From Roseiflexus sp. (GTDB lineage Bacteria; Chloroflexota; Chloroflexia; Chloroflexales; Roseiflexaceae), in NCBI GenBank assembly GCA_025062325.1, contig JANXAL010000012.1:1-35889 (forward strand): a stretch of DNA of 35,889 nt, read 5' to 3'. Shown here in pieces: positions 6,825-34,336 of the stretch (its first letter is position 1; every line of letters starts with the position of its first letter). The position numbers were made by a program, and so were the translations under genes. The notes below the pieces were generated by a model. It saw only the letters and a program-made list of their open reading frames with translations. It made no database searches and was not told the DNA's origin.

Positions 6825-9043
6825 CCGGCGCTGATGCGCGAGGGTTCGATGTCGCCATGAATGTCAGACAGTGGTTCCATCGATCAGCCCGCACAAATCA
6901 GCCGCAGTCCGATGAATTGCCGCATCAGTCGCCGGAACATGTGTGGCGACGCCTGGTAGTGGGGCTGAGCCTGGGGCTTGCTCTGGTCATCTGGCTGGCG
7001 CTGGCATGGCAGCCGGTCATCGCCCCTGATCTGCGACTTGGCCAGCCAAGTCCGCGTGACATTCAGGCGGATCGGACCATCACCTATGTCAGCGCGTGGC
7101 GCACTGAACAGGAACGCACCCGTGCTGAGAGTTCCGCCGATACGGTGGTCTACTCGCGCGACATGAGCATCCCCATTCAGCAGCGCACAGAACTCAAGAA
7201 CCTGCTACAGACGATTACGCAGATCCGGGACGACCCTACGCTGACGAAAGCGCAGGAGCGCGAACGCCTGACCAGCTTGCCCAACAGCACACTGGTGATT
7301 TCTCCTGAACTGGCAAGCGCAATCGCCCGTCAAACAGACGAGTCATGGGCATCGGTCAGCAACCTCTCGTTGGAATTGTATGATCGGGCGCTGAGCGAGA
7401 ACCGATACATGCTCAACGATCAAAAGATCGCCGAACTGCGTGCGTTTACGCTGCCCTATTGGGCGTCTCTTCAGGCGGAAACGCCGGAACAGGCGGAATT
7501 GATCGCGCTCTTCAGCGGCTCGTTTCTGAAAACGAACCAGTTTATCGATGAGGAAGCCACGCAACGCCGCAAACAGGAAGTCCGCGATGCCGTGCAACCG
7601 GTAACGGTCCGGATTCTCGAAGGCGAAAGCATCGTGCGCCAGGGGGACGTCGTAACTCCCGATGTTCTGGAAAAGCTCGAAGCGCTGGGGGCTCTGCGCA
7701 CAAAAACGAACTGGGCGTCCGTTGGTGGCAGGGCATTGCTGGCTTTGCTGTTCGCTAGCGTGTTTGGCGCATATATCGTAGTCGCTCAACGCGATACGTT
7801 GAAGGATGTTCGACCGTTGCTGCTCGTCTTTGGTCTCATAGCGCTGGCAATTGTTGCGGCGCGGTTGATTGGGCCGCTTGGATCGCAGTGGACTCTGGCA
7901 TTTCCAGTCGCATTGATTGCTATGCTGCTGGCGGCTCTCTTCAATGTTGGGCTAGCGCTGATGAGCGTAGGGCTGCTCAGCGCTGTGATTGCCAGTTTGA
8001 GCGATAATCACCTAGCAACGGCGATGACGCTCTCTGTGGGAGGAGTCGCCGGGGCGTTTCTGATAGGACGCGGGGAACGCTCGCTCTTGTTCTTTATCAG
8101 CGGCGTGGCGGTATTTTTGGTAACGGCAGCGGCGCAATTCACCTTTCACCTGATCGCGGGAGCGCTGCCTGTATTCGATCAGGCGCTGACCATCCTGGCG
8201 GTGAGCGGCATCAATGGCGCCCTCTCAGCCATTCTGGCGCTCGGTCTCTACAACCTTGCCGGTCAACTGGCCGGAATTGTCACGCCGCTCCGGTTGATGG
8301 AACTGGCGCATCCGGCGCAACCGCTGTTGCGCCGCCTGATCCGGGAAGCGCCCGGCACGTATTACCATAGCGTCGCAGTCGGCAATCTGGCGGAGAGTGC
8401 GGCGGAGGCGATTGGCGCCGATGCCCTCCTGCTGCGCGTCGCATCGTACTATCACGATATCGGCAAGACGATCCGGCCGTTTTTCTTCACCGATAATCAG
8501 AGCGACCGCGAGAATGTTCATGATGATCTCGATCCGCTAACCAGCGCACAGATTATCGCTGACCACGTGCGCGAAGGGCAAAAAATGGCGATCGCTGCGG
8601 GCCTGCCATCGCAGATTGTTGATTTCATCACCACGCACCACGGCACTAGTGTGATCAAGTATTTCTACCAGCGTGCCCTTCAGCAGCACGATACGGTTAA
8701 CATAGAGGATTATCGCTATCCCGGTCCGCGGCCCCGCACGCGCGAACAGGGTATCATGATGCTTGCCGATTCGGTCGAGGCGACGGTGCGCTCAAAGTTC
8801 CAGGCAGGCTGCGTGATTTCCAGTCGCGAGGCGCACAATGGCGATGGCCGGATACGCGACAATGGACAAACACTTGAAGAATTGGTGACAGCGATCATTG
8901 AAGAACGGGTGCGCAGCGGGCAACTCGACGAATGTCCGCTCACATTGCGCGATCTGGCGCGTATCCGTCAGGCGTTCATCACCACGTTGCAGGGTATTTA
9001 TCATCCGCGCGTCGATTACACGCCGGGCAAGCCTGTAATTTGA
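6821..9043 (+). CDS. pgpH: PgpH-like 7TM HD-domain phosphohydrolase (probable c-di-AMP phosphodiesterase)
   Basis: PgpH-family proteins sit in the membrane and hydrolyse cyclic di-AMP with a cytoplasmic HD domain. The layout matches: one membrane helix near residues 45-70 (LGLALVIWLALAW), a large extracytoplasmic 7TMR-HDED region to about 290, a block of seven hydrophobic helices (about 300-495), then the HD domain. In the latter, His-Asp at 545-546 (YYHDIGK) and later TTHH provide metal ligands. The GTG at 6821 overlaps the yqeY stop; an ATG at 6857 is an alternative start. The following ybeY and dgkA genes complete the order seen in many Gram-positive genomes (pgpH-ybeY-dgkA), supporting the call. 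Confidence 0.9.
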   Translation: MTGADARGFDVAMNVRQWFHRSARTNQPQSDELPHQSPEHVWRRLVVGLSLGLALVIWLALAWQPVIAPDLRLGQPSPRDIQADRTITYVSAWRTEQERTRAESSADTVVYSRDMSIPIQQRTELKNLLQTITQIRDDPTLTKAQERERLTSLPNSTLVISPELASAIARQTDESWASVSNLSLELYDRALSENRYMLNDQKIAELRAFTLPYWASLQAETPEQAELIALFSGSFLKTNQFIDEEATQRRKQEVRDAVQPVTVRILEGESIVRQGDVVTPDVLEKLEALGALRTKTNWASVGGRALLALLFASVFGAYIVVAQRDTLKDVRPLLLVFGLIALAIVAARLIGPLGSQWTLAFPVALIAMLLAALFNVGLALMSVGLLSAVIASLSDNHLATAMTLSVGGVAGAFLIGRGERSLLFFISGVAVFLVTAAAQFTFHLIAGALPVFDQALTILAVSGINGALSAILALGLYNLAGQLAGIVTPLRLMELAHPAQPLLRRLIREAPGTYYHSVAVGNLAESAAEAIGADALLLRVASYYHDIGKTIRPFFFTDNQSDRENVHDDLDPLTSAQIIADHVREGQKMAIAAGLPSQIVDFITTHHGTSVIKYFYQRALQQHDTVNIEDYRYPGPRPRTREQGIMMLADSVEATVRSKFQAGCVISSREAHNGDGRIRDNGQTLEELVTAIIEERVRSGQLDECPLTLRDLARIRQAFITTLQGIYHPRVDYTPGKPVI

Positions 9044-14430: not shown

Positions 14431-14474
14431 AGGAGTTCGTGCGAACGACCATTAGACAGAGAGGAGAGAGCGCA

Positions 14475-15914
14475 ATGCCGCCTGTCTCTCGTGACGCACC
14501 TTCACGCCGCGCCCAGGTGCGTGAACGTCTGCTTGCAGCGCTCGCCGGAGGCGCAGCGCTGACCGATCCCGATACCCTTGCGCGTAAGATCGATCAACTG
14601 CTGGCGGACGTGTTCGAGGATACGCCAGTGCCGCAACCTCAACCCGCGCTGATCGATCAGGGTGATGCGGATAGTCGCGTCGTCGTCACGGGCATGGGTG
14701 TGGTGACACCCTTAGGCAATGATCTCGAGACGTTTTGGCAGGGCTTGGCAGAAGGGCGGAGCGGCGTCGGTCCGGTTACACTCTGTGATCCCGGCGATGC
14801 GACGACCACCATCGCTGCTGAGGTGCGCAACTTCGATGCGCGCGATTATATGGACGCCAAAGAGGCGCGGCGTGTTTCGCGCGGCACACAGTTCGCCATT
14901 GCGGCAGCGCGTATGGCGCTCGACGATGCTCACCTGACGATTGACGATAGCAACCGGTACGACATCGGCGCCTTGATTGCCTGTGGCAGCACCTCGCCGC
15001 CCGACACCGAGGCGGCTGCCAAGATCCTCTTTGATCGCGGCGCAGCACGCATCAGCCCATTCTATATTACCAGTGCGCTTCCCAACATGCCGTCATGCCA
15101 GGTCGCCATTCATTTGGGGTTGATGGGGTATAACACCACGATTGCCACTGCGTGCGCCGCAAGTGCGCAGGCAATTGGCGAAGCGGCGGAGATCATCCGC
15201 CGCGGCGACGCGACGGTCATGCTGGCAGGCGGCACCGAAGCGCCGATCTGTCGCCTGACCCTCGCCAGTTTTGGCGCCATTCGCGCACTCTCAACGCGCA
15301 ACCACGATCCGGCTGGCGCATCGCGCCCGTTCGACGCCGAACGTGATGGGTTCGTCCTCGGAGAAGGCGCAGGCGTGCTGGTGCTCGAATCGCTCTCCCA
15401 CGCCCGGCGACGCGGTGCGCGTATCTATGCCGAGATCATCGGCTATGCAACGACATGCGATGCATATCACGTCACCGCACCCCATCCGACCGGTGATGGC
15501 GCGGCTCGCGCGATTGTGCGCGCGCTGGCCCAGGCGAAGATTACACCGCAGCAGGTTGATTACATTAATGCCCATGCGACCGGTACGCCGATAGGTGATG
15601 TCGCTGAAACGCTGGCAATCAAGATAGCCTTTGGCGAGTACGCTTCCAGTGTACCAATCAGCGCCACCAAGTCGATGATTGGTCATCTGACAAGCGCCGC
15701 TGGCGTGGTAGAGGCGGCGGCAACAATCCTGGCCATGCAGCATCAGTTCATTCCGCCAACGATTAACCTGACAACGCCTGATCCGCAGTGCGACCTCGAT
15801 TATGTTCCGCTGCGCGGACGACCGGCAGCAATTCGGATTGCCATATCGAATTCGTTCGGATTCGGCGGGATCAACAGCGTCCTGGTGCTGCGTCGCGGCG
15901 ATCTCAGCCAGTAA
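14475..15914 (+). CDS. fabF: FabF-like 3-oxoacyl-ACP synthase with N-terminal extension
   Basis: Ketosynthases of this type condense malonyl-ACP with an acyl-ACP. The catalytic Cys227 (TACAASAQ), His367 (NAHATGTPIGD), Lys399 and His404 (KSMIGHLTSAAG) are all present, so activity is expected. The family core starts at RVVVTGMGVVTPLG, about residue 68 of 479. Before it lies an unusual ~65-residue extension with a predicted helical segment (RRAQVRERLLAALAGG..., DTLARKIDQLLADVF) and a Pro-rich linker. The start at 14475 is fixed by GAGGAGAGAG immediately upstream. No other fatty-acid genes are adjacent, so it may serve a specialised lipid or polyketide rather than the main pathway. Confidence 0.88.
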   Translation: MPPVSRDAPSRRAQVRERLLAALAGGAALTDPDTLARKIDQLLADVFEDTPVPQPQPALIDQGDADSRVVVTGMGVVTPLGNDLETFWQGLAEGRSGVGPVTLCDPGDATTTIAAEVRNFDARDYMDAKEARRVSRGTQFAIAAARMALDDAHLTIDDSNRYDIGALIACGSTSPPDTEAAAKILFDRGAARISPFYITSALPNMPSCQVAIHLGLMGYNTTIATACAASAQAIGEAAEIIRRGDATVMLAGGTEAPICRLTLASFGAIRALSTRNHDPAGASRPFDAERDGFVLGEGAGVLVLESLSHARRRGARIYAEIIGYATTCDAYHVTAPHPTGDGAARAIVRALAQAKITPQQVDYINAHATGTPIGDVAETLAIKIAFGEYASSVPISATKSMIGHLTSAAGVVEAAATILAMQHQFIPPTINLTTPDPQCDLDYVPLRGRPAAIRIAISNSFGFGGINSVLVLRRGDLSQ

Positions 15915-16037: not shown

Positions 16038-16424
16038 CTAAGCCGTGATCGTTGGCGCGGATAGCAGGTATTGGACGTACTCGATCAAACTGTCCAGGTC
16101 GAAGGGTTTATCAACATAATCGACACAGCCAAGAGCCTGCGCCCGGGATCGCTTGATAAGCGTGGTATAGACGGTTGCACCGAGGATAGGAACGGCTGCA
16201 ATCTCTGGGAGGGTACGCAATTGACGCACGGTTTCCCAGGCCGGTTGACCGGGGAGTGAAAGCGAACAGAGGATCAGATCAGGTCGTATGCCAGAGCAGA
16301 TGTGGTCCAGAGCGTTTGATGGTGCGGCTTCGATGACGTGATAGCCAGAGAAGCGCAGCAGACGAGCGAGAATGTCACGGTGATCGGGAGCTTCATCAAC
16401 GATAAGAATGGTGCGATGCGCCAT
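16038..16424 (-). CDS. Receiver-domain protein lacking the phosphoacceptor Asp
   Basis: The 128-residue product is a stand-alone CheY-like receiver: TILIVDEAPDHRDILARLLRFSGY at the start, PDLILCSLSLPG in the middle and DYVDKPFD at the end. Asp10 and Glu11 form the usual acidic pair and Lys105 is conserved. The residue that should be the phosphorylated Asp, in the PDLILxDLxLPG pattern, is Ser54 (codon TCG). It therefore probably cannot be phosphorylated in the normal way and may be a pseudo-receiver. AGAGGG lies just before the ATG. It is divergent from holB with a 50- to 80-base intergenic region. No histidine kinase is nearby. Confidence 0.85.
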   Translation of the reverse strand: MAHRTILIVDEAPDHRDILARLLRFSGYHVIEAAPSNALDHICSGIRPDLILCSLSLPGQPAWETVRQLRTLPEIAAVPILGATVYTTLIKRSRAQALGCVDYVDKPFDLDSLIEYVQYLLSAPTITA

Positions 16425-16505
16425 GCAGCCCTCTTACGTAGTTCGTAGCGTTTCTACCATAATTAGAACTGGTGGTACTTGTTGAAAGATACGGCTTATC
16501 AAGTG

Positions 16506-17570
16506 ATGATCGAATTGTCAGACAACTGGGGTATTGTCGGGCACGAATGGGCTGTCGAGTTTCTGCGACGCTCGATTGCCAGCAATCATCTTGCGCATGC
16601 GTATCTTATTAGCGGTCCGGAAGGCGTAGGGAAGGCATTGCTGGCGCTCCGATTGGCGCAGGCGCTCAACTGCGAGCAGGCAGGCGTCGATCCATGTCTG
16701 CGCTGCCGGGCGTGCCAGCGGATTGAACGCAGTAATCATCCGGATGTGCGCATCGCTGGAATGGCAACGCAGGCGGCAGGCGCCAAAGCCGACGATGCCG
16801 CGCGGCAGAAAGAATTGAAGATTGATACGGTACGCGAGTGGCAGCGCGATATCACGCTAAAGCCTTATGAAGGGCGACGGCGAGTCTTCATTCTGCACGA
16901 CGCAGAAAAGTTGAATGAAGCTGCGTCGAATGCGATGCTGAAAACCCTGGAAGAACCGCCTCCCTATGCGACACTCGTTCTGGTGGCGCATACGGCGGGC
17001 AGCCTGCTGCCGACGATTGTTTCACGCTGTCAGTTGCTGCGGTTGCGACCATTGCCGCGCGCGCAGGTGGCAGCGGCGCTGCGTGAGCGGTGGAACCTGG
17101 CGGCTGGCGACGCCGAACTCCTGGCGGCATGGAGCGGCGGACGGATCGGATGGGCGCTACGTCTGATCGAGGCGCCGGATGCACTGGCAGCACGCCAGCA
17201 GCGACTGGATGAACTGCTGGCGCTTGCCGACCAACCGCTGGTGGTCAGGCTCCGTTGGGCGGAGGAATGCGCAAAAGCCTATCGTGCTGGCGAGCAGACG
17301 GCGGTGTTCGAGACGCTTGACCTGTGGCAGAGCTGGTGGCGCGATGTGCTGCTGACCGCCGCTGGATGTCCACAGGCGATTATCCATATTGATCGCCGCG
17401 AAGCTCTTGCAGCAGCGGCAGCACAGTACACCGTCTCTGATCTCCATGCCTTCGTTTCAAGCATCTCCCTGGCAGCACAACGTCTACGCGATAATGTCAA
17501 CCCTCAACTCGCGCTCGAAGGCATGGTGCTGGCGATGCCGGAGCGACAAGCGCCGCAAGCAAGGAAATGA
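16506..17570 (+). CDS. holB: DNA polymerase III delta-prime subunit
   Basis: Clamp-loader subunit that helps open and load the sliding clamp. It starts with DNWGIVGHEWAVEFLRRSI, then AHAYLISGPEGVGKALL, a Walker A whose final Ser/Thr is Ala, a Cys cluster (C-x7-C-x2-C-x2-C) that binds zinc, LEEPPPYATLVLVA and the SRC motif (TIVSRCQLLRL). Delta-prime is known not to hydrolyse ATP, so the altered Walker A fits. The reading frame extends upstream to a TTG at 16479, nine codons earlier; I prefer the ATG because the conserved sequence starts right after it. Its stop overlaps the next gene (ATGA). Confidence 0.9.
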   Translation: MIELSDNWGIVGHEWAVEFLRRSIASNHLAHAYLISGPEGVGKALLALRLAQALNCEQAGVDPCLRCRACQRIERSNHPDVRIAGMATQAAGAKADDAARQKELKIDTVREWQRDITLKPYEGRRRVFILHDAEKLNEAASNAMLKTLEEPPPYATLVLVAHTAGSLLPTIVSRCQLLRLRPLPRAQVAAALRERWNLAAGDAELLAAWSGGRIGWALRLIEAPDALAARQQRLDELLALADQPLVVRLRWAEECAKAYRAGEQTAVFETLDLWQSWWRDVLLTAAGCPQAIIHIDRREALAAAAAQYTVSDLHAFVSSISLAAQRLRDNVNPQLALEGMVLAMPERQAPQARK

Positions 17571-19707: not shown

Positions 19708-20337
19708 CTATGCCAGCGCCAGAAACGAAACGGTGACAACCATTGCAGCGACTGCCAGACCGGCGATCACCTGCCCCGGTGTGTGGTTGCGCGTTCGCAC
19801 CCTCGCCCAGGCGACGGCGCCCGCGCATATCCAGAAGACGACTCCCAGAATATTCGAATAGATAAGCGCCAGGGTCGCCAGCGCACCGATCGCCGCACCA
19901 TGCATACTGATCTTCCAGATCAGATTGATCAAACCGCAGATGATCCCGATGCCCAGCATGCCGACCGTCAACGCCAGAAACGGTCGCGGCGCGTCCAGCG
20001 CCAGGAGCAGCACAATGGTTAGCAAGACCGACACAGTGCCAAAAACGTACAGTTCATTCCGCTCGTGCCGCACCGATACATCGGCATCACTGAACCCTCC
20101 CTGGCGCAATCGCACCAGGTAATACAGGACAGATGGCACGGTCTGGAAGACAATAATGCCACCGACCCATGCCAGACCCGCTTCGTCCAGCGTCTGAAGA
20201 CCGATCAGAAGGTAGGCGGCGATAGTGACGAACACCGGGTTGAAGATCTGCGACAGCAATCTGGCAAGGAGAAGACTGCGGCTCTCCATCTCGTCGGAGT
20301 CGAGCGTTTCACCGGAGAGCTCTGGTTGTTGCCTCAT
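19708..20337 (-). CDS. PAP2-family membrane protein
   Basis: Six or so hydrophobic helices and the two PAP2-like motifs KISMHG (catalytic His region) and RVRTRNHTPGQVIAG. PAP2 enzymes remove phosphate from lipid phosphates or pyrophosphates. The third motif normally ends HxxxD; here it reads HTPGQ, a variant seen in some uncharacterised members, so activity is uncertain. Within a polysaccharide cluster a lipid-carrier phosphatase is a sensible guess. The ATG at 20337 has GGGAG upstream and overlaps the glycosyltransferase 3' end by 29 bases; Met17 is an alternative start. Confidence 0.75.
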   Translation of the reverse strand: MRQQPELSGETLDSDEMESRSLLLARLLSQIFNPVFVTIAAYLLIGLQTLDEAGLAWVGGIIVFQTVPSVLYYLVRLRQGGFSDADVSVRHERNELYVFGTVSVLLTIVLLLALDAPRPFLALTVGMLGIGIICGLINLIWKISMHGAAIGALATLALIYSNILGVVFWICAGAVAWARVRTRNHTPGQVIAGLAVAAMVVTVSFLALA

Positions 20338-21511
20338 GCAATGCTCCCGTTGATAACGAGTAATAGTGTTCGATAATCTGCCGGGCAGACGCTTCCCAAC
20401 GAAATCGTCGCGCCCGTTCCAGACCCGCCTGCCGGAGTCGATCGCGCAGAGCGCTATCTTGCAACAGGCGGATCATCCCTGCTGAGAGTGCGTTCACGTC
20501 ATCAGCCGGCGCCAGGAGGGCCGCGTCGCCCACCACCTCCGGGAGACTCGAATTGTCGGATGTTATCACCGGCGTCCCACACGCCAGCGCTTCCAGCGGC
20601 GGCAGCCCAAACCCCTCATAGATCGAGGGATACACGAATACCCGCGCAAGATTATACACGATTGGCAGGTCAGCATCCGCCACGAAGTCAAGCAAAAGCA
20701 CCCGATCCTGCAATCTCAGGCGCTCGATAGTCTTGAACACCGGCTGATACATCCATCCCCGTCGACCGGCAATCACCAGAAAGAGGTCGTCCCTGCCGAT
20801 GCGCAGCGCTGTCGGGTCGATACGGGCAAAGGCTTCCAGCAGACGCACCAGATTCTTGCGCGGCTCTATTGTCCCGACGAACAGGATGAAGCACGACGGC
20901 AGACGCAACCGCTGACGCACCGGCTCACATACCTCCGGCGGCAGCGGACGAAACCGTTCATCAACCGCCGGGTACACCACACTCACTCGCTCAGGGGCGA
21001 CGTTCAGCAGGCGCTGCAGGTCACGCCGCGTCGACTCTGAGTCGGCCACGATGATATCGGCGCGGCGCAGAGCGCGTGGCACAGCATCGCGCAGAAATGC
21101 GGCCACGCCGGGAACTGCGCACTCTGGATGCACCATATACGACAGGTCGTGGATGGTAACAAGAGTGCGGGCGCGGGTCGGCGGCGCTACGAAATCAGGC
21201 GCGTGCAGAACATCGAGCGGACCGGTCAGCCACTCGATTGGCAAGGGGATACGCAACCGATGCCACAACTGCGTTAGACGACGGGGCGGCAGCGGAATGG
21301 GAACCGCGCGGGTAAACGGATGCGATGCGCAGAGGCGACGCACCTCGCGCAGATAGGGAGGAGAATCGGCGCCGGGAAAGCCAGCAGCGTAGAACAGGGT
21401 GAAGCGAATATCAGGACTTTGAGCCAGAATGGCGCCTATCAGTTCGCGTGTATAGCGCCCGATGCCAGCTCCCTGCCAGGCGCCAGCCGTAAAATCAATG
21501 CCGACGTGCAT
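20309..21511 (-). CDS. GT4-family glycosyltransferase (mannosyltransferase-like)
   Basis: The 400-residue GT-B enzyme starts MHVGIDFTAGAWQGAGIGRYTREL, has HAPDFVAPP and HDLSYMVHPE in the acceptor domain, FVGTIEPRKNLVRLLEAFAR at the start of the donor domain and PSIYEGFGLPPLEALACGTPVI with the retaining E-x7-E pattern. This is the usual pattern of GT4 mannosyltransferases such as those of polysaccharide clusters. The start at 21511 follows the family; a GTG at 21532 overlaps the stop of the upstream flippase-like gene and may be used instead. Product and linkage are unknown. Confidence 0.88.
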   Translation of the reverse strand: MHVGIDFTAGAWQGAGIGRYTRELIGAILAQSPDIRFTLFYAAGFPGADSPPYLREVRRLCASHPFTRAVPIPLPPRRLTQLWHRLRIPLPIEWLTGPLDVLHAPDFVAPPTRARTLVTIHDLSYMVHPECAVPGVAAFLRDAVPRALRRADIIVADSESTRRDLQRLLNVAPERVSVVYPAVDERFRPLPPEVCEPVRQRLRLPSCFILFVGTIEPRKNLVRLLEAFARIDPTALRIGRDDLFLVIAGRRGWMYQPVFKTIERLRLQDRVLLLDFVADADLPIVYNLARVFVYPSIYEGFGLPPLEALACGTPVITSDNSSLPEVVGDAALLAPADDVNALSAGMIRLLQDSALRDRLRQAGLERARRFRWEASARQIIEHYYSLSTGALHEATTRALR

Positions 21512-21528
21512 AGAACGGTCGCCTGTCG

Positions 21529-22641
21529 TCACCTGCGTTTACTGACGAGGTACAGGACGAACCCGATCACGACAATGCTCCAGAAATTGATCACTCGATC
21601 AAGCAATGTGACCGCGCCGCCAAGACTCGTTCCGACCTTGAAGAAGGTCAGCACGCCGGTAATCACTGTTTCGACAACGCCGAGACCGGCGGGCGTAAAG
21701 GGAACAGCGGTCAACAACGACGATGCCAGCGCGATGAAGATAATTGCCGACAGCGGCAGCGACAGCCCCTCGTGGCTGAGCGCCTGGATCACGAAGTAGA
21801 GGCGCATCCCTTCCAGCAGCCAGACGCCCGACGTCAGCACGATCAGTTTGGGCAAAATGCTGGGACGGAACGAGCGGAGCGCTGCATGTTCGAAGTTGCC
21901 GTAGACACCGACCAGGCGTTTTGGAATGAACCGCCGGATGATGGGGCTTAACCAGCGCATTCCTGCGAGACCGCTCACGATCACAACAACCAGCAGCGCG
22001 CCGAAGCCGAAGACGATCTGGGTGCCTTCCGGCATCTTCGCGCCGAACGTGAACCAGGCCGACAGCACCAGCAACCCAAACAACCCCAGCATGTCCAGGA
22101 GGCGCTCGGCGAAGATTGTGCCAAACGTCGCCGAAAACGACACGCGTCCATTCTGTTTCAGCAGATACCCGCGGTACGCATCGCCAAGCTTGGCGGGCAC
22201 CACACAGTTGGCGAACCATGAGAGATAGATATATTCCATCAGCGCAGGCAGCGACGCCCAACTCGTGCGCCCCTCGCGCACCGGCACATTCGCATTTTCC
22301 AGCAGCATACGCCAGCGCACGGCGCGTAACGGAAACGTGAGATAGAAGATGCCAAAACCGGCCAGCAGCAGCCATCCGTTCGCGCTGCGCATGTACTGCC
22401 ATGTCTGCTGGACATCGATATCAAAGCCGCGCACCGCAAAAACGACAATAGCGACTGCCAGCGCAAACGAGATGAGTGTGCGCGGGCTGCGCAGCGCTTT
22501 TGCCAGCGAGAATCCCTGTCGTTCGACTTCCTGAACTTCAGGGGGATCAGGCAGGTTGACCGATTCTTCGACGCCCGCGTCGCCGACTCGTTCCTTGATC
22601 ATCGCTGAACCATCCTCTCGTGATGCGGTCGAAACGTCCAT
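21529..22641 (-). CDS. Flippase-like membrane protein (LPG synthase TM/AglD family)
   Basis: After a polar N-terminus of about 50 residues the protein has eight or so hydrophobic helices with the family landmarks VPAKLGDAYRGYLLK and TAVPFTPAGLGVVE. This family includes the membrane half of MprF and proteins found with glycosyltransferases such as AglD, where a lipid-flipping or lipid-glycan role is suggested. Starts at 22641 or 22602 are possible; GAGAGG lies 11 bases before the latter. It sits between the UDP-sugar epimerase and a glycosyltransferase, supporting a role in glycan or glycolipid export. Confidence 0.8.
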   Translation of the reverse strand: MDVSTASREDGSAMIKERVGDAGVEESVNLPDPPEVQEVERQGFSLAKALRSPRTLISFALAVAIVVFAVRGFDIDVQQTWQYMRSANGWLLLAGFGIFYLTFPLRAVRWRMLLENANVPVREGRTSWASLPALMEYIYLSWFANCVVPAKLGDAYRGYLLKQNGRVSFSATFGTIFAERLLDMLGLFGLLVLSAWFTFGAKMPEGTQIVFGFGALLVVVIVSGLAGMRWLSPIIRRFIPKRLVGVYGNFEHAALRSFRPSILPKLIVLTSGVWLLEGMRLYFVIQALSHEGLSLPLSAIIFIALASSLLTAVPFTPAGLGVVETVITGVLTFFKVGTSLGGAVTLLDRVINFWSIVVIGFVLYLVSKRR

Positions 22642-22699
22642 TGGCTTGTCGAGATTGCATCAGTTTTTCAGAGGGCGCGCTTCCCTGCAAACTTCCTGC

Positions 22700-23653
22700 T
22701 CAGGCGCCATACTCGCTCTGATACCATTCCCAAAAGCGCGCCAGCCCTTCTTCTAGCGGCGTACACGGCCGAAATCCTAGCATCCGCGCCGCCTTGTCGA
22801 TCCGGGCATACGTGATCGGCGGGTCTGCCGCCGGTAAAGGCCGGACCTCTACCCTGGCGCGCAGACCAGTCACCCGCTCCAGCGTCGTGACGAAATCGAT
22901 CAACTGCACCGGACTCGAATGCCCCAAATTGAAGATTTCAAAAGCGTATCCGGCATCGAGCGCCGCTACAACGCCAGAAATAATGTCATCAATGTACGTC
23001 CAGTCGCGATAGACGCCTACCCCGCCGTTGAACAGCGTGATCGACGTTCCGGCGACCATCGCATCAACGAACAGATGCGGCGTCATGTCGGGGCGACCGC
23101 GTGGGCCGTACACGGTAAAGAAGCGCAGAATGCGCGTCGGTATGCCGTACTGACGATGCGCCGTATATGCCAGCACCTCTGCGGCCTTTTTCGTGGCAGC
23201 GTAGTATGACAGCGGTCGATCAGTCGGCGAGTCCTCAGACCAGGGCGTAGGCGCCATGCCATACACGGATGATGTGGACGCCAGCACCAGACCTTCAACA
23301 TTGTACCGCGCTGCCGTTTCCAGGACGATCAGCGTACCGCGAACATTGACATCTTCATACAGCGCAGGGTTGCGCATCGACGGTCGTGGACCGGCCATTG
23401 CGCCAATGTGCGCCACCCGCTGCGGTTGGTACTGCGCAAATACGTGGTCCATCACTTCCGCATCACGAAAGTCTGCTTCGATCAGCGTATAGCCGGGATG
23501 TGCGAGCGCGCGCGCAATGTTGCGTCGCTTCCGCGCCGGATCGTAGTAATCGTTGAAATTATCAATGCACACCACCTGATCGCCGCGCGCCAGCAACGCC
23601 TCGCTCAGGTGGCTGCCGATAAATCCCGCTCCGCCTGTAATGAGATAGCGCAT
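22700..23653 (-). CDS. UDP-glucuronate 4-epimerase-like SDR enzyme
   Basis: Extended short-chain dehydrogenase acting on a nucleotide sugar. The NAD site TGGAGFIGSH (7-15), the stretch DNFNDYYDPARKRRN typical of UDP-glucuronate epimerases, STSSVYG and the Tyr151-Lys155 pair (YYAATKK) are visible. These point to interconversion of UDP-glucuronate and UDP-galacturonate. The gene starts inside the last 49 bases of the O-antigen ligase-like gene. UXS, 1.5 kb upstream, uses the same UDP-glucuronate pool. Confidence 0.88.
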   Translation of the reverse strand: MRYLITGGAGFIGSHLSEALLARGDQVVCIDNFNDYYDPARKRRNIARALAHPGYTLIEADFRDAEVMDHVFAQYQPQRVAHIGAMAGPRPSMRNPALYEDVNVRGTLIVLETAARYNVEGLVLASTSSVYGMAPTPWSEDSPTDRPLSYYAATKKAAEVLAYTAHRQYGIPTRILRFFTVYGPRGRPDMTPHLFVDAMVAGTSITLFNGGVGVYRDWTYIDDIISGVVAALDAGYAFEIFNLGHSSPVQLIDFVTTLERVTGLRARVEVRPLPAADPPITYARIDKAARMLGFRPCTPLEEGLARFWEWYQSEYGA

Positions 23654-25107
23654 CGTGGTTGAATACGTTCAGCGCCGCGCGCAATTCCATCAACTATTGC
23701 CCACACGACTGCCAACTGAATGCCGAAATTGAGTACGTGCAGATTCTCGAACAGGTTATGCCCTGCCACTGCTGCGATGATACCACATCCGCCGACGGCT
23801 GTGCCGTACAAAACAGGATCGGTTGTGCGTCGAAGCGCACACACTGCTTGCCGGATCACCCCGCCAATCAACGCCAGGTATGCAATGAAGCCGATAATCC
23901 CCGCCTCCGCCGCTATGTGCAGATAATAGTTGTGCGCATGCCCGCGACTCGCATACCATGCGCCAACCGCAAACTCCGGGTACGCAACCGAGTAGTTGCC
24001 AGGACCGACGCCAAACAGCGGTGCAGAGCGGAACATCTCCCACCCTGCCTGCAGGTGCGCCATGCGCTCGACAACTGCGAAGTTCTCCGGGGTCACAGTC
24101 ACTGCCGCAGCGTCGAACCAAGCCACACTTCGCCAGATGCTCGTCAGACGCGCAACCAGCACCTCGGGCAGCATGCCTGCGATGGCGAGCAATGTCACCA
24201 CTATGCCGGTCGCTAACAGACCCAGGATGGCTGGTAGCGCGCGCCTGCCCAGGCTCAGCGCCATTCCCGCTACCCCGATGGCTGCTCCAATCCACGCCCC
24301 CCGCGAGAACGACGCGAGCAACGCTGCCAGCATTACCCCGGCAATCCCCCACAGAACCGCCGCGAGCAGCCAGTGACTCACGGCAGTCAGGCGATGCTGC
24401 GTACCCTTCTGCCAGGCGCTGCTGGTCGTTACGATCGCCAGCGCGAGCGCCAGCGGCCATGCCATGTTCAGGTACCCCGCAAATGAATTCGGTTGACCGA
24501 TCGTGCCGTATGCCCGCACATACGGCAGGCCAGGCGCGATCCGGAAGGTCGGCGGACCGTCGCCGGTTACAAACTGCACGATGCCGATGCCAGCACATAC
24601 GGCCGGGGCGATGAGCAGGCACACCAGCAGGTACAGGACATGCCAGCGCCGGGTAACGGCGCTCGCCGCTACCGTCCAGACCACCGCCGCAACAGTCCAG
24701 CGCAACGTCTCACGCAGCGCCTCTGTGCGCGAATATGGAGTTATACTGGCAGACAGCACCAGCGCGAAGAGCAATCCCCCCCACAGAAGCAGCATATCGG
24801 CGGGAAGCGGGTGATGCTCAATGCGCGCTAGGGTATGGAACACTCCGCTTCCCAGCGTCACCAGCAGCAGAGCCTGTGTGACCGACAGCCCCCCTGGCAG
24901 GATGACCAGTTCCTGCACCGGTACCGACAGCACCGCCATTCCAACTGCGAGAACCGGATGCGCCAGCGCCAGAACCAGCGCCAGCGCCGCACCCGCGATC
25001 AGCGCTGCCTGATCGAGTGGAGTGATCGCCAGGAGCGCTCCCAGCGTCACGGCGACAACCCAGAGAGCCGCCGGTATCCGAGAGGAAGAAGGTTGCGAGA
25101 TTGTCAA
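23605..25107 (-). CDS. O-antigen ligase/polymerase-like membrane protein
   Basis: The ~500-residue protein has about a dozen hydrophobic helices, and the Wzy/WaaL-type segment GVGPGNYSVAYPEF...RGHAHNYYLHIAAEAGIIGFIAY, where the HNxYL stretch lies in the periplasmic loop of this family. These enzymes join or polymerise lipid-linked glycans outside the membrane. I place the start at TTG 25107, preceded by AGGTGAGGA; GTG codons at 25119 and 25125 are alternatives, and the frame is open further into the upstream epimerase end. It overlaps the downstream epimerase gene by 49 bases. Neighbours fit polysaccharide assembly. Confidence 0.8.
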   Translation of the reverse strand: MTISQPSSSRIPAALWVVAVTLGALLAITPLDQAALIAGAALALVLALAHPVLAVGMAVLSVPVQELVILPGGLSVTQALLLVTLGSGVFHTLARIEHHPLPADMLLLWGGLLFALVLSASITPYSRTEALRETLRWTVAAVVWTVAASAVTRRWHVLYLLVCLLIAPAVCAGIGIVQFVTGDGPPTFRIAPGLPYVRAYGTIGQPNSFAGYLNMAWPLALALAIVTTSSAWQKGTQHRLTAVSHWLLAAVLWGIAGVMLAALLASFSRGAWIGAAIGVAGMALSLGRRALPAILGLLATGIVVTLLAIAGMLPEVLVARLTSIWRSVAWFDAAAVTVTPENFAVVERMAHLQAGWEMFRSAPLFGVGPGNYSVAYPEFAVGAWYASRGHAHNYYLHIAAEAGIIGFIAYLALIGGVIRQAVCALRRTTDPVLYGTAVGGCGIIAAVAGHNLFENLHVLNFGIQLAVVWAIVDGIARGAERIQPRCAISLQAERDLSAAT

Positions 25108-25133
25108 TGACGTCCTCACCTGCACCCCGGATT

Positions 25134-26087
25134 TCAAGGCAATTCCCCGCGTTTGCGCAGCTCTTCGCGGAACCAGGGGATCGTGAGGCGCAAGCCTTCT
25201 TCGAGGCTCACGCGCGGCTCCCAACCGAGAATTCTGCGCGCCTTCGAAATGTCTGGCTGGCGCACCTGCGGATCGTCCTTTGTACGGAGATCTTTGTATA
25301 CCACGCCAGCCTTGTTGCCGGTCAACCGATTAACCAGTTCAGCGAACGCCTTGATGGTGAACTCGCTCGGATTGCCGATATTGACCGGTTCGACCTCATC
25401 AGAGAAGAGCAGGCGATAGACCCCTTCCACCAGATCATCCACGTACTGGAACGATCGCGTTTGCGAACCATCGCCGTAAATGGTCAGCGGTTCGCCGCGC
25501 AACGCCTGCTGAATGAAATTGGGCACAACCCGACCGTCACGGAGCCGCATACGCGGACCATACGTATTGAAAATGCGTACGATGCGCGTGTCGACGCCGT
25601 GATAGCGATGGTACGCCATCGTCATCGCCTCGGCGAAGCGTTTGGCTTCATCATAGACGCCGCGCGGACCAATCGGATTGACGTGCCCATAGTATGTTTC
25701 CGGCTGCGGATGGACTTGCGGATCACCGTACACTTCTGAGGTTGATGCAAGCAGAAACCGCGCTTTTTTGTTCTTTGCCAGCCCCAGCGCCTTGTGGGTG
25801 CCCAGAGCGCCGACCTTCAACGTTTGAATGGGCAACTCCAGGTAATCGACCGGTGACGCAGGTGAGGCGAAGTGCAAAATGGCGTCGAGCGGACCCTCGA
25901 CAAAAATATAGTTCGTCACGTCATGCTTGATGAAACTGAAGCGCGGATGGCCAGCAAGATGGGCGATATTGTCGGTGCTGCCGGTGATCAGGTTGTCCAT
26001 CGCCACGACGGTATGACCTTCCGCCAGGAATCTGTCACACAAATGAGATCCAAGAAAACCGGCGCCGCCAGTGATCAGTATCCGCAT
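25134..26087 (-). CDS. uxs: UDP-glucuronate decarboxylase (UDP-xylose synthase)
   Basis: Converts UDP-glucuronate to UDP-xylose and CO2 using bound NAD. At 317 residues it is a typical bacterial UXS. Signatures are [25 protein letters not shown] (72-82), STSEVYGDP with Glu118, and [15 protein letters not shown] with Tyr145 and Lys149. AAAGGGG precedes the ATG. It is the first gene of the tightly packed part of the polysaccharide operon, so a xylose- or uronate-containing glycan is likely. Confidence 0.93.
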
Positions 26088-26159
26088 AGGCGCACAACCC
26101 CTTTATTCATCGCTAGTATCGTACTCTATGTCAGTGAGGAAACTGTGACTCCGCTCATG

Positions 26160-26165
26160 ATTATA
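26160..26165 (-). promoter_or_regulatory. -10 box for the uxs operon
   Basis: TATAAT on the minus strand, about 70 bases upstream of the uxs ATG, with no good -35 box. It would drive uxs and the seven genes behind it. Confidence 0.4.
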
Positions 26166-26212
26166 GTGAACGTCCTGTCATGCGTGCTGATAATGCAGAG
26201 CATGCATCACAA

Positions 26213-26674
26213 TCACATTATTGCCTTCTCGCATTCCTGCTTCCAAGACCCTTGAGGCCGGAGCACGCACAAACCGGGCAAGGATCGTTCCGCCAGCGAA
26301 GTTCCACGACCATCTTCGATCTGCGGCTCTTCTGGGGATGCTTTTCCTAATGAGGAGATTAGTCTGAACCTAAACATGCGCGCTGCGGGCGTGCTCAAGT
26401 CAGGCAAGTCCCTCGGAGCCTTCACGCGCTCAGCCCGCAGCGGTCGGTTGCGCAAGATGGCGTCGTTTCGCGTGGTAACCCTGGTTGCACCGGTGCTAGG
26501 AGCAGCTTCGGCGCCTCGTTTGTTCCCTGCCTGGTTGATCTCCCTGTTAGCGCGATCATTTGCGTCCTGCTCCATTCCTTCCCCCAGCAATCGGCACGCT
26601 TCCCTTGAGCGCACTGCCACGCACCTCTCCCTGCCACCCTGGCGCCGCCAATCTGCGCGTCCAGCATGCAGCAT
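26213..26674 (-). pseudogene. Possible decayed IS605-type tnpB tail
   Basis: Within the 700-base gap between uxs and the sugar-phosphate transferase, the minus strand reads EQDANDRANREINQAGNKRG followed by a Pro/Arg-rich tail and GSWKQECEKAI. This resembles the end of IS605-family TnpB proteins, where the zinc ribbon is followed by a D-x-NAAxNIxxAG stretch and an Arg-rich tail that overlaps the guide-RNA region. A Cys-containing stretch (WQCAQGKRADCWGKEW) lies in another minus frame just upstream, as expected after a frameshift. No complete transposase, ends or tnpA can be seen. The resemblance is by eye only. If wrong, this gap simply holds no recognisable gene. Confidence 0.3.
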
Positions 26675-26789
26675 GCATAGACAAGCGGCCTATCCGTCCT
26701 TCTGCGCCTTCCCGCATGCGACAATCCATACGCAACGTGCAACAATCCCCCCGCCTTCGACCTCTCTTGCCCCACCTCTTTCGCCTCCC

Positions 26790-28358
26790 TCAATACGCCC
26801 CGCGCCCTGAGATGACCACCGGGATTGTCTGCAACAGAATGCGCAGATCCATGCCGGGAGTCCAGTTTTCGGTGTAGAAGATGTCGAGGCGCACCATCTC
26901 GTCGAATGAAATGTCGCTGCGCCCCAACACCTGCGATAAGCCGGTCAACCCGGGCACCACCGTCAATCGGCGATAATGCCAGTCTTCGTACTGTGCAACT
27001 TCTTCCGGCGTCGCCGGGCGCGGACCGACCCAGCTCATATCGCCGCGCAGGATATTCCACAATTGAGGAAGTTCGTCCAGACTGTAGCGTCGCAGCACGC
27101 GCCCGACCCGTGTCAGCCGCGGATCGTTGCGGATTTTGAAGAGCGGACCATCAGCCTCGTTCAACGCCGCAAGCTCGGCTTTTCGCTGTTCCGCATCAAC
27201 AACCATGGTGCGAAACTTGTAACAGACGAAAGGACGACCGTCTCGCCCAATCCGGCGCTGACGGAAGATTGCTGGTCCGGGCGAGTCGAGACGCACGATG
27301 AGAGCGATCGCCACTCCCAGTGGAATCACCAGCGGCAGCGCAAGCAGTGTCAATGCCAGATCCATCGCTCGTTTGACCACCAGATTCCAGCCGCGCAGCG
27401 AGACTTCTTTCAAGCCAATCAGGGGAATGCCGCCCAGGTTGCCAATATCAATCCGGTCGAAACTCAGTTGATAGAGATCGGGAACGACGCGAAACTCAAC
27501 TCCCGCATAGCGGCAGGTCGCTACCAGATCGGGGAGGCGGTGATGCTCCCAGAACGGCAGCGCCAGAATAACCAGATCGATATCCCCGCTGCGCAAACAG
27601 GTTTCAAGGTCGCTAATCCGTCCGATCTGTCGAAAATGGATGGTTCGTCGGTTGGGGATCGTCTCACGATCATCGAGAAAGCCAACGAGCGCATATCCCA
27701 GATCGGGTTGCGCTACCAGGCTTTCCATCACCTCTCGCCCCAGGCCCGTATTGCCGACCACCAGCACCCGCTCACGATCGATGCCACGCACCCAGCGCCA
27801 GCGGCGTATGCCGATCAGCACAGCGCGCCAACTGACAAGGAGCGCAATGATCGTTCCCCAGGCAAATGCAAAGATCAGGCGCGAGTAGAACTCCGATGGC
27901 TTGTACAGAAAGACCACCACGATCAGGATAGCGATGCCGGTCGTTGTCGAGCCGACGATAATACTGGCGTGGTCAATCACGCCCGCCGTGCGCGGCAGGC
28001 GGTACAACCCGCGCATGGTGAATTGAACCATCAGCAGCGCTGCCAGCAGAAGCGCGAATGGTGCAAAGGCGCTGAACGGCACAAAGTTTTGCGCCTGTAC
28101 TTCGCGCACCAGTTGATCGAACGGCGGAGGCCAATCGAGCTCGTAGCGCATCCAGTAGGCAATGGCGAAACCTGCCAGAATCAGGCAGGTGTCGAAGAGG
28201 GACAGCAGCGCGCTGGCGACCGTCTTTCGGCGGCGACCGATTGGAAGAGGAGCACACGCGACGGATGCGGCAGTCGTCGCCTCAGTTGTCTCTTTCACCG
28301 TCGGCTCCTTCTGAACACCATGGTTCGTTCGATCGCGATCAGTCGTATTGTACTTCAT
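26790..28358 (-). CDS. Polyprenyl sugar-phosphate transferase (initiating enzyme)
   Basis: Transfers a sugar phosphate from a nucleotide sugar to undecaprenyl phosphate, the first step in building a polysaccharide unit. The protein has four hydrophobic helices (about 50-200), a CoA-binding-like central domain (RVLVVGNTGLGREVMESL), a fifth hydrophobic helix (DLALTLLALPLVIPLGVAI) and the catalytic C-terminal domain with PAIFRQRRIGRDG, YKFRTM, RYSLDELPQLWNIL and MSWVGPRP. This is the WbaP/WcaJ architecture; the sugar is not determined. The start at 28358 is the first conserved Met outside the obg stop region. It starts 11 bases after obg on the same strand. Confidence 0.92.
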   Translation of the reverse strand: MKYNTTDRDRTNHGVQKEPTVKETTEATTAASVACAPLPIGRRRKTVASALLSLFDTCLILAGFAIAYWMRYELDWPPPFDQLVREVQAQNFVPFSAFAPFALLLAALLMVQFTMRGLYRLPRTAGVIDHASIIVGSTTTGIAILIVVVFLYKPSEFYSRLIFAFAWGTIIALLVSWRAVLIGIRRWRWVRGIDRERVLVVGNTGLGREVMESLVAQPDLGYALVGFLDDRETIPNRRTIHFRQIGRISDLETCLRSGDIDLVILALPFWEHHRLPDLVATCRYAGVEFRVVPDLYQLSFDRIDIGNLGGIPLIGLKEVSLRGWNLVVKRAMDLALTLLALPLVIPLGVAIALIVRLDSPGPAIFRQRRIGRDGRPFVCYKFRTMVVDAEQRKAELAALNEADGPLFKIRNDPRLTRVGRVLRRYSLDELPQLWNILRGDMSWVGPRPATPEEVAQYEDWHYRRLTVVPGLTGLSQVLGRSDISFDEMVRLDIFYTENWTPGMDLRILLQTIPVVISGRGAY

Positions 28359-28369
28359 CGAGATCCGGT

Positions 28370-29803
<1,434 letters not shown>

Positions 29804-29806
29804 CTA

Positions 29807-30013
29807 TTATGCCTTGGTCTCAGCCTTTTTGTCGGTTGATTCGTTCGTCTCGGCTTTGTTGGCGGGAACCTCGTCGTCCTCACGCACGGCTTTGCGGAAC
29901 GCCTTGATGCTGCCGCCAAGCGCGCTGGCGACGCTGGTAATGCGCGAAGCGCCGAACAACAACAGGATAATAACCAGGATGATAATCAGTTCGCCAATTC
30001 CTATCGCTGGCAT
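29807..30013 (-). CDS. tatA: Sec-independent protein translocase subunit TatA
   Basis: TatA multimers form the path for folded proteins through the cytoplasmic membrane. The 68-residue product begins [21 protein letters not shown], with Glu8, the single membrane helix and Phe20-Gly21 of the hinge, then an amphipathic helix ([17 protein letters not shown]) and a charged tail. GAGGAGAGGGG precedes the ATG. tatB and tatC are not in the window. Confidence 0.92.
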
Positions 30014-32779: not shown

Positions 32780-34336
32780 ATGCCTGACGGTATCACCAAC
32801 CTTTCGCCGCTCGATGCTGAGGATCTGGCATGGTTGATGCGATGTGAGCGACGTATCTGGTTCGACTGGCGCAACAGCCAGGCGCCGGAGATGGCCCCGA
32901 CTGCCGATGCACGCATGCGCATTGCACTGCGCGTCGCGCACCGCCGCCGCATCCTTGCCTCTCTTGAGAACGTTGCGAATCTCTCGACACTCCCATGGGA
33001 GGAGCGGATCGAACAGACGCGCTACGCTATGCAGCGTGGCGCAGCAGCGATTGTCGGCGCTGCGCTCGAAGCGCCTGTCGATGATCGCCTGTTGCGCGGC
33101 GCCCCTGATCTTCTGTTGCGTGACCCTTCAGCGCTCCCCGGCACGCGGACATACCAACCAATCGCTATTGCGCTTCACACCCGTCCCGCGCGTTGGGACC
33201 GGCTTCTGCTCGACTCATGGCGCTGGCTCGTCCGCCACGCACAGGGAAACGAGGACGACCCTCCGGGCGAACTGTGGCTCGGCGTGAACGGCAATGGTCC
33301 AGCATTTATCAAGCGCCAGACTGCATCGCTCGCCACTTTCACGGCGCACGTGCGACGCGCCGCTTCGATTGCCGCCAGGGACGCTCCGGCTATTTGGTTC
33401 GATAACGACCACTGTCCATTCTGTCCGTGGCGCGCGGCGTGCGACGCCACAGCGCGCGAAACCCGTGATATCGCACTCCTTCCGGGACTGAGTCGGCGGC
33501 AGGGGAGCGCACTACGACAGCGTGGCATTCACCGCCTAGATCAGGTTGTAACGCTTAGTACTGCAACGCTGGCTTCGTTACCGGATCGCGTAACTGCGAC
33601 AGGCGCGCGTCTCCGACTCCAGGCGCAGGCATTGCTCACCGGTCAACCACTGCCGACCGGCGTTCCCGTCCCGCCGCTTCCCCGGGTCGGGCTTTTTCTC
33701 GATATCGAAAGCGACCCAGCGACGCGCGAACCGTGGGCTTTTGGGCTGGCCAGCGCATCCAGAGATCGCCTCGTTATCGTGGTCAAACCATCGCCTGGCA
33801 ACGGCGCAGCACGGATCGACGGCATTCCTGTCGTGTGGGTGCGGAATGTTCAGGAGGGATGGCGGCGCGTGCTCGATGCCGTGCGTACAATGAGCGGCAT
33901 GCTGGCGCACTGGGGTGAAGCCGAGCGTCTTATGCTGGAGCAGAGCGCTGATCCGCAAACGCGCCAGGATCTTGTTCCGTTCATGATCGACGCACAGCAC
34001 GAATTGCACCGGCGCGTCGCCCTGCCTGTTCCCCGGTTGAGCGACCAGCGCGGCGGCGGGTTGAAAGCCATTGCGCGTTGGTTGGGATGGACGTGGCCCC
34101 CCGGTGCTGATCACTGGACGCTGGCGTGGGAGGCATACCGGCAATGGTGCGTACAACCATCGCCCGCTGACGCTCCGGATGTGCTCAGGCCCGCCATCGT
34201 CTATCTAGCAGTTGATGTCGAGGCGCTAGCAGCGGTCTGGCGCTGGCTCGAAACCTTCGCGGCGTCGGTCAACGCAACCGGCGCGCCTCAAGGTTGGCGT
34301 GCAGATCGAGATATCGCAACCAACCACGAATGCTGA
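32780..34336 (+). CDS. TM0106-type RecB-like nuclease/RNase H-like fusion, nuclease residues altered
   Basis: The layout matches the TM0106 family of RecB-like proteins. Cys22 with Cys212, Cys215 and Cys221 (DHCPFCPWRAAC) should bind an iron-sulfur cluster as in Cas4/AddB-type domains. The PD-(D/E)XK region keeps Asp110 (GAPDLLL), but the expected D-x-K after a Tyr-Pro stretch reads YQPIAIAL, so the second acidic residue and Lys are missing. A helix-hairpin-helix stretch (ALRQRGIHRLDQV) follows, then an RNase H-like exonuclease domain from FLDIESDP (Asp308, Glu310) to YLAVDVEAL. The exonuclease half may be active. Its 3' end overlaps the convergent DinB-like gene by 68 bases. Confidence 0.75.
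   Translation: MPDGITNLSPLDAEDLAWLMRCERRIWFDWRNSQAPEMAPTADARMRIALRVAHRRRILASLENVANLSTLPWEERIEQTRYAMQRGAAAIVGAALEAPVDDRLLRGAPDLLLRDPSALPGTRTYQPIAIALHTRPARWDRLLLDSWRWLVRHAQGNEDDPPGELWLGVNGNGPAFIKRQTASLATFTAHVRRAASIAARDAPAIWFDNDHCPFCPWRAACDATARETRDIALLPGLSRRQGSALRQRGIHRLDQVVTLSTATLASLPDRVTATGARLRLQAQALLTGQPLPTGVPVPPLPRVGLFLDIESDPATREPWAFGLASASRDRLVIVVKPSPGNGAARIDGIPVVWVRNVQEGWRRVLDAVRTMSGMLAHWGEAERLMLEQSADPQTRQDLVPFMIDAQHELHRRVALPVPRLSDQRGGGLKAIARWLGWTWPPGADHWTLAWEAYRQWCVQPSPADAPDVLRPAIVYLAVDVEALAAVWRWLETFAASVNATGAPQGWRADRDIATNHEC

Follow-up and report, generated by a model that had tools for sequence, protein, structure and literature searches.

An aspartate-less stand-alone receiver between fabF and holB in Roseiflexus sp., probably a pseudo-receiver that acts without phosphorylation

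The window analysed here, a stretch of 35,889 nucleotides at positions 1 to 35,889 of contig JANXAL010000012.1 of Roseiflexus sp., carries on its minus strand a gene for a stand-alone receiver protein (16038–16424) in which the phosphorylated aspartate is replaced by serine. The open reading frame (ORF) is read from 16424 to 16038 and consists of 128 codons from ATG, followed by a stop codon; a match to PF00072, an AlphaFold2 (AF2) model, and 10 intact orthologues elsewhere support its assignment as an aspartate-less receiver (pseudo-receiver) gene. An earlier note made from the sequence of the window had given the same position, strand, and reading, which proved to be right. Codon 54, in the place of the phosphorylated Asp, is TCG (16263–16265; CGA on the plus strand), as indicated by codon reading and orthologue comparison. 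The Asp of a canonical response regulator is thus absent from the phosphorylation site, and the sequence, with a receiver match and the phosphorylatable Asp gone, corresponds to an aspartate-less receiver as defined in PMC4395418 and PMC12632262.

PF00072 (Response_reg) was the single Pfam family matched by the 128-amino acid (aa) protein (E = 1e-15); its score of 58.3 bits lay above the cut-off of 30.2, and the match covered positions 1–110 of the 111 in the profile. Four of the five receiver active-site positions are retained, namely the acidic pair D10 and E11 (codons 10–11, 16392–16397, minus strand), the conserved T84 (16173–16175, minus strand), and the conserved K106 (16107–16109, minus strand), and P107 is also found in its usual place. 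Ser54 sits where strand 3 ends (RPDLILCSLSLPG). The earlier description of a good receiver with Ser at residue 54, an acidic pair, and the Lys was borne out by these results, and T84 can be added to it. D10, T84, and K106 were present in 11/11 orthologues including the window protein, whereas residue 11 was Asp in six, Glu in four, and Asn in one. The residue following the conserved Thr (T+1) is a bulky Val encoded by codon 85 (16170–16172, minus strand), and Val, Leu, or Ile occupied this position in all 11 orthologues. The AF2 model, built on the window protein aligned with 48 homologues taken from the 80 loci, had a mean predicted local distance difference test score (pLDDT) of 85.8 and showed the full fold of five strands alternating with five helices (strands 5–9, 29–33, 50–54, 80–84, and 102–105; helices 13–25, 35–43, 61–70, 89–98, and 110–122). 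The top Foldseek match of the model among the 50 matches listed was RR468, with a TM-score of 0.90 by target length.

Residue 54 was compared among orthologues and other receivers. When the alignment of the 11 orthologues was used to search 82 genomes of the order, the orthologues scored 189–217 bits, as against 116 bits for the best of the remaining proteins, so that the orthologue family is sharply bounded among these genomes. An intact gene was present in 11 of the 26 genomes of the family of Roseiflexus (the genome of the window included), these 11 belonging to seven genera, whereas the other 56 genomes of the order had no match at that score level. Residue 54 was Ser in six orthologues, Ala in four (G006, G008, G009, and G014), and Asn in one (G010); none had Asp. 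The Ser codon was TCG in five genomes of the same genus and TCA in G011. In contrast, Asp was found at the aligned site in 45/45 of the other receivers in a 56-row tree, which are a selection from the best matches, and in 79/79 of the homologues from other taxa among the matches listed, with the partial locus L110 left out. These homologue loci (at least 80, all of at most 36% identity) came from a scan of genome contigs in which near relatives of the window protein may be missing, and hence this set does not bound the family.

According to the earlier note, orthologues having Asp at this position would have pointed to a sequencing error or a strain-specific mutation. With Asp in 0/11 orthologues and the same codon in five assemblies of the genus, and with no supporting point found, such an artefact has a negligible probability; the observation of Ser at the phosphorylation site is right and robust. 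Conservation of Ser54 itself, which the note had left to be checked in other Roseiflexus genomes, was seen in the five same-genus genomes with an intact copy (that of the window included) and was not maintained across genera. Because residue 54 is Ala in four and Asn in one of the 11 orthologues, a role specific to Ser appears unlikely for the family, and Ser at this residue is incidental. Within the genome of the window, 78 of 85 PF00072 matches had Asp at this column, and the seven others had Glu (three), Ser, Gly, Asn, or Ala (one each); in two of the seven, the match is partial and leaves out the acidic pair. Among the seven, the receiver studied here retains both acidic residues, the Thr, and the Lys, while a 463-aa frame at C97:20075 with Glu at the site retains both acidic residues and the Lys, with Ser in the place of the Thr. 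Asp-less receivers are accordingly a minority in this genome yet not rare, which is in line with the 4–13% of receivers given in PMC12632262, and Chloroflexi are named among the groups enriched in them (PMC4395418).

The 11 orthologues occupied one side of one branch in the 56-row maximum-likelihood tree (support 100/99) and formed a clade with a support of 99 in a 211-row FastTree. Since they form one clade, the Asp was most likely lost once. The sister group consisted of the Asp-bearing receivers of G011, G006, G014, and G016, with supports of 85/79 in the 56-row tree and 91 in the FastTree. The ratio of nonsynonymous to synonymous substitution rates (dN/dS) was 0.074–0.148 in eight of nine pairs, which were drawn from six of the 11 genomes; among the eight usable pairs, the two most distant had a dS of 1.7, and dS was saturated in the ninth. 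These values point to clear purifying selection on the pseudo-receiver.

Several residues around the active site distinguished the orthologues from the 45 Asp-bearing rows of the tree. H15 and L89 were present in 11/11 orthologues and in 0/45 of the Asp-bearing rows, and Q60 was present in 10/11 against 1/45. A62 was found in 10/11 orthologues, whereas Gly stood there in 45/45 Asp-bearing rows; similarly, G82 was found in 11/11, whereas 44/45 had Ala. L81 (11/11 against 8/45), F108 at the position K+2 (11/11 against 10/45), and D111 (11/11 against 14/45) differed in frequency. The bulky residue at T+1 was opposed to Ala or Gly in 44/45 Asp-bearing rows, and the residue before the Thr (T-1) was Ala, Thr, or Ser in 11/11 orthologues and Val, Leu, Met, Phe, or Ile in 45/45 Asp-bearing rows. 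The pocket thus has His at DD+4 and Gly-x-Thr-Val/Leu/Ile in place of Ala-x-Thr-Ala/Gly. Val at T+1 also occurred in 8/84 of the other receivers of the genome of the window. In the wider set, Phe at K+2 was present in 68/79 homologues and Gln at D+6 in 9/79 (among the matches listed); since so many homologues share it, Phe at K+2 was dropped as a mark of the family. T+1, D+8, DD+4, and K+2 are the positions at which pseudo-receivers are reported to depart from receivers, including a bulky T+1 and the loss of the Gly at D+8 (PMC12632262).

Conservation of hand-chosen sets of positions was also compared with 10,000 random position sets using eight divergent orthologues. The positions of the pocket rim were the most conserved set, with only a fraction of 0.0006 of the random sets as low. 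The outward positions were not more conserved than random (fractions of 0.32 for alpha3, 0.78 for alpha4, 0.98 for alpha5, and 0.99 for alpha2), and those facing the histidine kinase in RR468 structures were not significantly so (0.18). Because the pocket rim is the most conserved set and family-specific residues are fixed, the sequences indicate that the pocket end has been reshaped and is not simply decaying.

The gene lies in reverse orientation between two genes of the plus strand. Downstream, a fabF-like ketoacyl synthase gene (14439–15914; PF00109/PF02801) converges on it. On the other side, holB, encoding a DNA polymerase III delta-prime-like protein (16506–17570; PF13177, E = 1.7e-52; start given by the ORF tool, TTG at 16479), is divergent from it, as had been noted, and a sequence resembling a ribosome site, AGAGGG, stands upstream of the ATG (16429–16434, minus strand; read by eye), in agreement with the ribosome site claimed before. 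The divergent intergenic stretch common to the receiver gene and holB (16425–16505) contains blocks resembling CCGTATCTTT and GTAGAAA, which recur in the genomes of the same genus and in G009 (by eye). A sigma-70 scan gave no match for the receiver gene on the minus strand.

The reversed position between fabF and holB was found in 10 of the 11 carriers; the exception was G010, which carries the receiver gene at another place, close to a gene judged by eye to be RodA/FtsW-like. Outside the family, 53 genomes had a holB match, and the 21 best-scoring loci were read: in 16 of these, fabF and holB were neighbours on the same strand and no receiver separated them, and in the remaining five no fabF was seen within the 1.5-kb flank. 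In genus g8, fabF and holB adjoined without the receiver in all nine genomes with a holB match (11 g8 genomes in all), while in genus g3 no fabF stood beside holB in G013, and G007, with holB near a contig end, was not counted. Since fabF and holB adjoin in most of the examined relatives without the gene, the receiver gene most likely entered an older fabF–holB pair. A functional link to holB or fabF was considered and rejected, because conservation extends over much of the surrounding block and the two genes also stand together in genomes where the receiver is missing; the neighbourhood says little on function. Of the 33 ORFs of the window, 20 were scanned, and none of these showed a histidine kinase domain; the receiver is also the only PF00072 match on its contig, so it is an orphan.

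We consider it quite probable from these comparisons that the protein is an aspartate-less pseudo-receiver, descended from an Asp-bearing stand-alone receiver, that acts by protein contact without phosphorylation. Within the same bacterial family, a stand-alone receiver that still had the Asp would have been duplicated, and one copy would have been placed in reverse orientation between fabF and holB. The phosphoacceptor would have been lost once, before the divergence of the genera now carrying the gene; residue 54 would then have drifted among Ala, Ser, and Asn, and the rest of the pocket would have been rebuilt and fixed. The receiver fold is most probably held in one phosphorylation-independent state, with the protein serving as a constitutive protein-binding adapter. 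Its partner would be bound through the remodelled pocket end, and its activity would be set by the amount of the protein, presumably through its expression level, or by the partner. Control by partner or amount has been proposed for pseudo-receivers in general (PMC12632262). The phosphorylation independence suggested in the earlier note is well supported at the sequence level by the absence of Asp throughout the clade and by the bulky T+1 in 11/11, although the conserved feature is not Ser itself. The partner-sequestering role that the note offered as its other suggestion gained no positive evidence, as the positions facing a histidine kinase in RR468 structures did not stand out significantly from random ones.

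Several points weigh against this reading. In 14 of the 26 genomes of the family, no copy of the gene was found, G001 being counted apart. In G001, which belongs to the same genus, the copy between fabF and holB (L045, about 7880–8220) is broken by frameshifts and stops, and for this reason the gene is dispensable there. The position sets compared for surface conservation were chosen by hand, and buried positions are conserved anyway. The retained acidic residues, Thr, and Lys could bind Mg or another ligand, which would bring the protein under small-molecule control. Furthermore, Phe at K+2, reported to bias CheY toward the inactive state (PMC12632262), sits poorly with a simple always-on adapter, but it is common in receivers at large.

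The broken copy in G001 could also be taken to mean that the receiver is in decay, with the loss of Asp as a first step to a pseudogene. The low dN/dS in all eight usable pairs, a frame kept open in 11 genomes of seven genera, and the fixed family-specific residues make such decay very improbable. Regulation by a Ser/Thr kinase phosphorylating Ser54 would suit the presence of Ser in 6/11 orthologues with two codons (TCG and TCA); because of the Ala and Asn orthologues, Ser phosphorylation is ruled out as the mechanism of the family, and we give hardly any credence to Ser54 being regulatory in itself. A decoy that docks on a histidine kinase like an unphosphorylated response regulator, accepts no phosphate, and blocks or tunes the kinase has more in its favour. 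Structures of the RR468–HK853 complex, the D53A mutant included, are among the nearest folds, and Phe at K+2 is said to favour inactive conformations (PMC12632262). At the rewired RR468 interface (positions 13, 14, 17, and 21 in the title of 4ja2, with an offset of one), the family has an acidic residue at 14 and His at 15 in 11/11 and Leu at 22 in 10/11. However, the four interface positions were not significantly more conserved than random sets, Phe at K+2 carries little weight given its frequency among the listed homologues, and the scanned window ORFs contained no histidine kinase domain. We regard the decoy as an unlikely role, though one to be kept in mind. The single-domain response regulator EpsW acts on a large phosphoglycosyl transferase in Myxococcus (PMC12802240), and such an enzyme is encoded in the nearby polysaccharide cluster (26793–28415). 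The NCBIfam EpsW model (NF041866.1) was the second-best model match of the receiver; its score of 52.3 bits is far below the cut-off of 200 bits, and the protein falls outside that family. Moreover, EpsW acts in the phosphorylated form (PMC12802240), a transferase was found in 26/26 genomes of the family, including those without the pseudo-receiver, and in G011 and G006 the best transferase match and the pseudo-receiver were on different contigs. An EpsW-like activation of the nearby transferase thus found no support and has very little probability.

The sister receivers suggest another context. All four adjoin a gene for a protein of 880–891 aa with a C-terminal FGE-sulfatase domain (L314:2196–5458, L315:2419–5668, L316:5478–8535, and L317:1–4817), which we call NACHT-FGE, a label coined here in view of weak NACHT or AAA matches in three of the four. 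The receiver-linked proteins share, in 4/4 cases, a conserved domain of about 70 aa at the N-terminus, whereas the homologues without an adjacent receiver (L330:4343–6811, L331:3758–6118, and L332:3984–6383) lack it (0/3), suggesting that the N-terminal domain and the receiver belong together. NACHT-FGE homologues of at least 300 bits were present in 11 of the 26 genomes of this one family, the best match elsewhere among the 82 genomes being 241 bits, and in 10 of these 11 genomes the pseudo-receiver is present as well, intact or as a remnant. Completeness is 82–84% in the three genomes that break the pattern (G002, G008, and G016). Kinase-independent receivers have been proposed as nucleotide-responsive switches in STAND-related conflict systems (PMC8195603). 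A STAND-type module with an FGE domain may accordingly include the pseudo-receiver or have given rise to it, and the pseudo-receiver could act on this module in trans without phosphorylation. However, the support for the sister group is moderate, and the co-occurrence follows kinship: because genera g3 and g8, which have neither gene, may share ancestry, common descent alone could explain it. In none of the stretches read did the pseudo-receiver lie close to the NACHT-FGE gene. In G000 (the genome of the window), G009, and G010, the NACHT-FGE homologue is 35–37% identical, has no receiver beside it, and lacks the N-terminal domain, and nothing below E 0.01 was found there when receiver remnants beside the gene were looked for. 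Neither the receiver nor any of three NACHT-FGE proteins compared had a match in PADLOC-DB at E 0.001. The NACHT-FGE neighbour of the sister receivers is therefore a lead and not a demonstration, and membership in such a module seems rather improbable. The same doubtful standing applies to a fuller scenario, in which a receiver of the module would have been copied into the fabF–holB gap, lost its Asp, and had its pocket rebuilt, so as to be now a kinase-free, possibly ligand-responsive switch for the module or, as a substrate mimic, for a kinase. If this were true, a phospho-switch would have turned phosphate-blind while its Asp-bearing sister form persists in G006, G011, and G014.

The class of pseudo-receivers is already known, and the family described here belongs to it. 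Ser, Ala, and Asn are common replacements in aspartate-less receivers, with shares of 15%, 9%, and 16%, respectively (Maule 2015, PMC4395418). The second acidic position is acidic in 10/11 orthologues here as against 29% of aspartate-less receivers (PMC4395418), and K+2, which is Phe in 11/11, is shifted to Ala, Ile, Leu, or Val in pseudo-receivers, of which 20% have Phe (PMC12632262). The window protein also differs from the class in being a stand-alone receiver with no output domain. FrzS of Myxococcus xanthus likewise has a pseudo-receiver, with Ala in place of the Asp (PMC4395418), and acts by protein contact through its alpha3-beta4-alpha4 surface (PMC12632262); we infer the same mode for the window receiver, which, unlike that of FrzS, is a lone domain. 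A single receiver domain without an output domain is also what likens it to EpsW. The nearest relatives in two trees, the Asp-bearing sister receivers, differ in retaining the Asp, the Gly at D+8, and the gene partner. A 2025 review states that the activation and inactivation of bacterial pseudo-receivers 'remain a mystery' (PMC12632262), and no paper title concerning this protein was found among titles on aspartate-less receivers, Roseiflexus response regulators, and Chloroflexi atypical response regulators. The present family would offer a clean comparison in this respect, with one inferred loss of Asp, Asp-bearing sisters that coexist with the pseudo-receiver in three genomes (G006, G011, and G014), a small lone domain, relatives with an empty site, and one natural loss of the gene. 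The fixed replacements H15, Q60, A62, G82, V85, and L89 are candidates for the changes that make a receiver phosphate-blind. Apart from that comparison, the family is unremarkable within its known class.

Other features of the window and the outgroup loci were also observed. The polysaccharide genes on the minus strand (20309–28415) encode a glycosyltransferase, an O-antigen ligase-like Wzy_C protein, and the large sugar transferase (Bac_transf + CoA_binding_3), and two long ORFs at 28241–29839 (532 aa) and 32780–34336 (518 aa) had no Pfam match at E 1e-5. In the outgroup genomes G051 and G052, a receiver of 29–31% similarity (L298:12–365 and L299:6–332) lies past the 3' end of holB and not between fabF and holB. 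The fabF-like protein of the window has about 78 residues ahead of its Pfam domain, which starts at residue 79, and its listed start codon is GTG.
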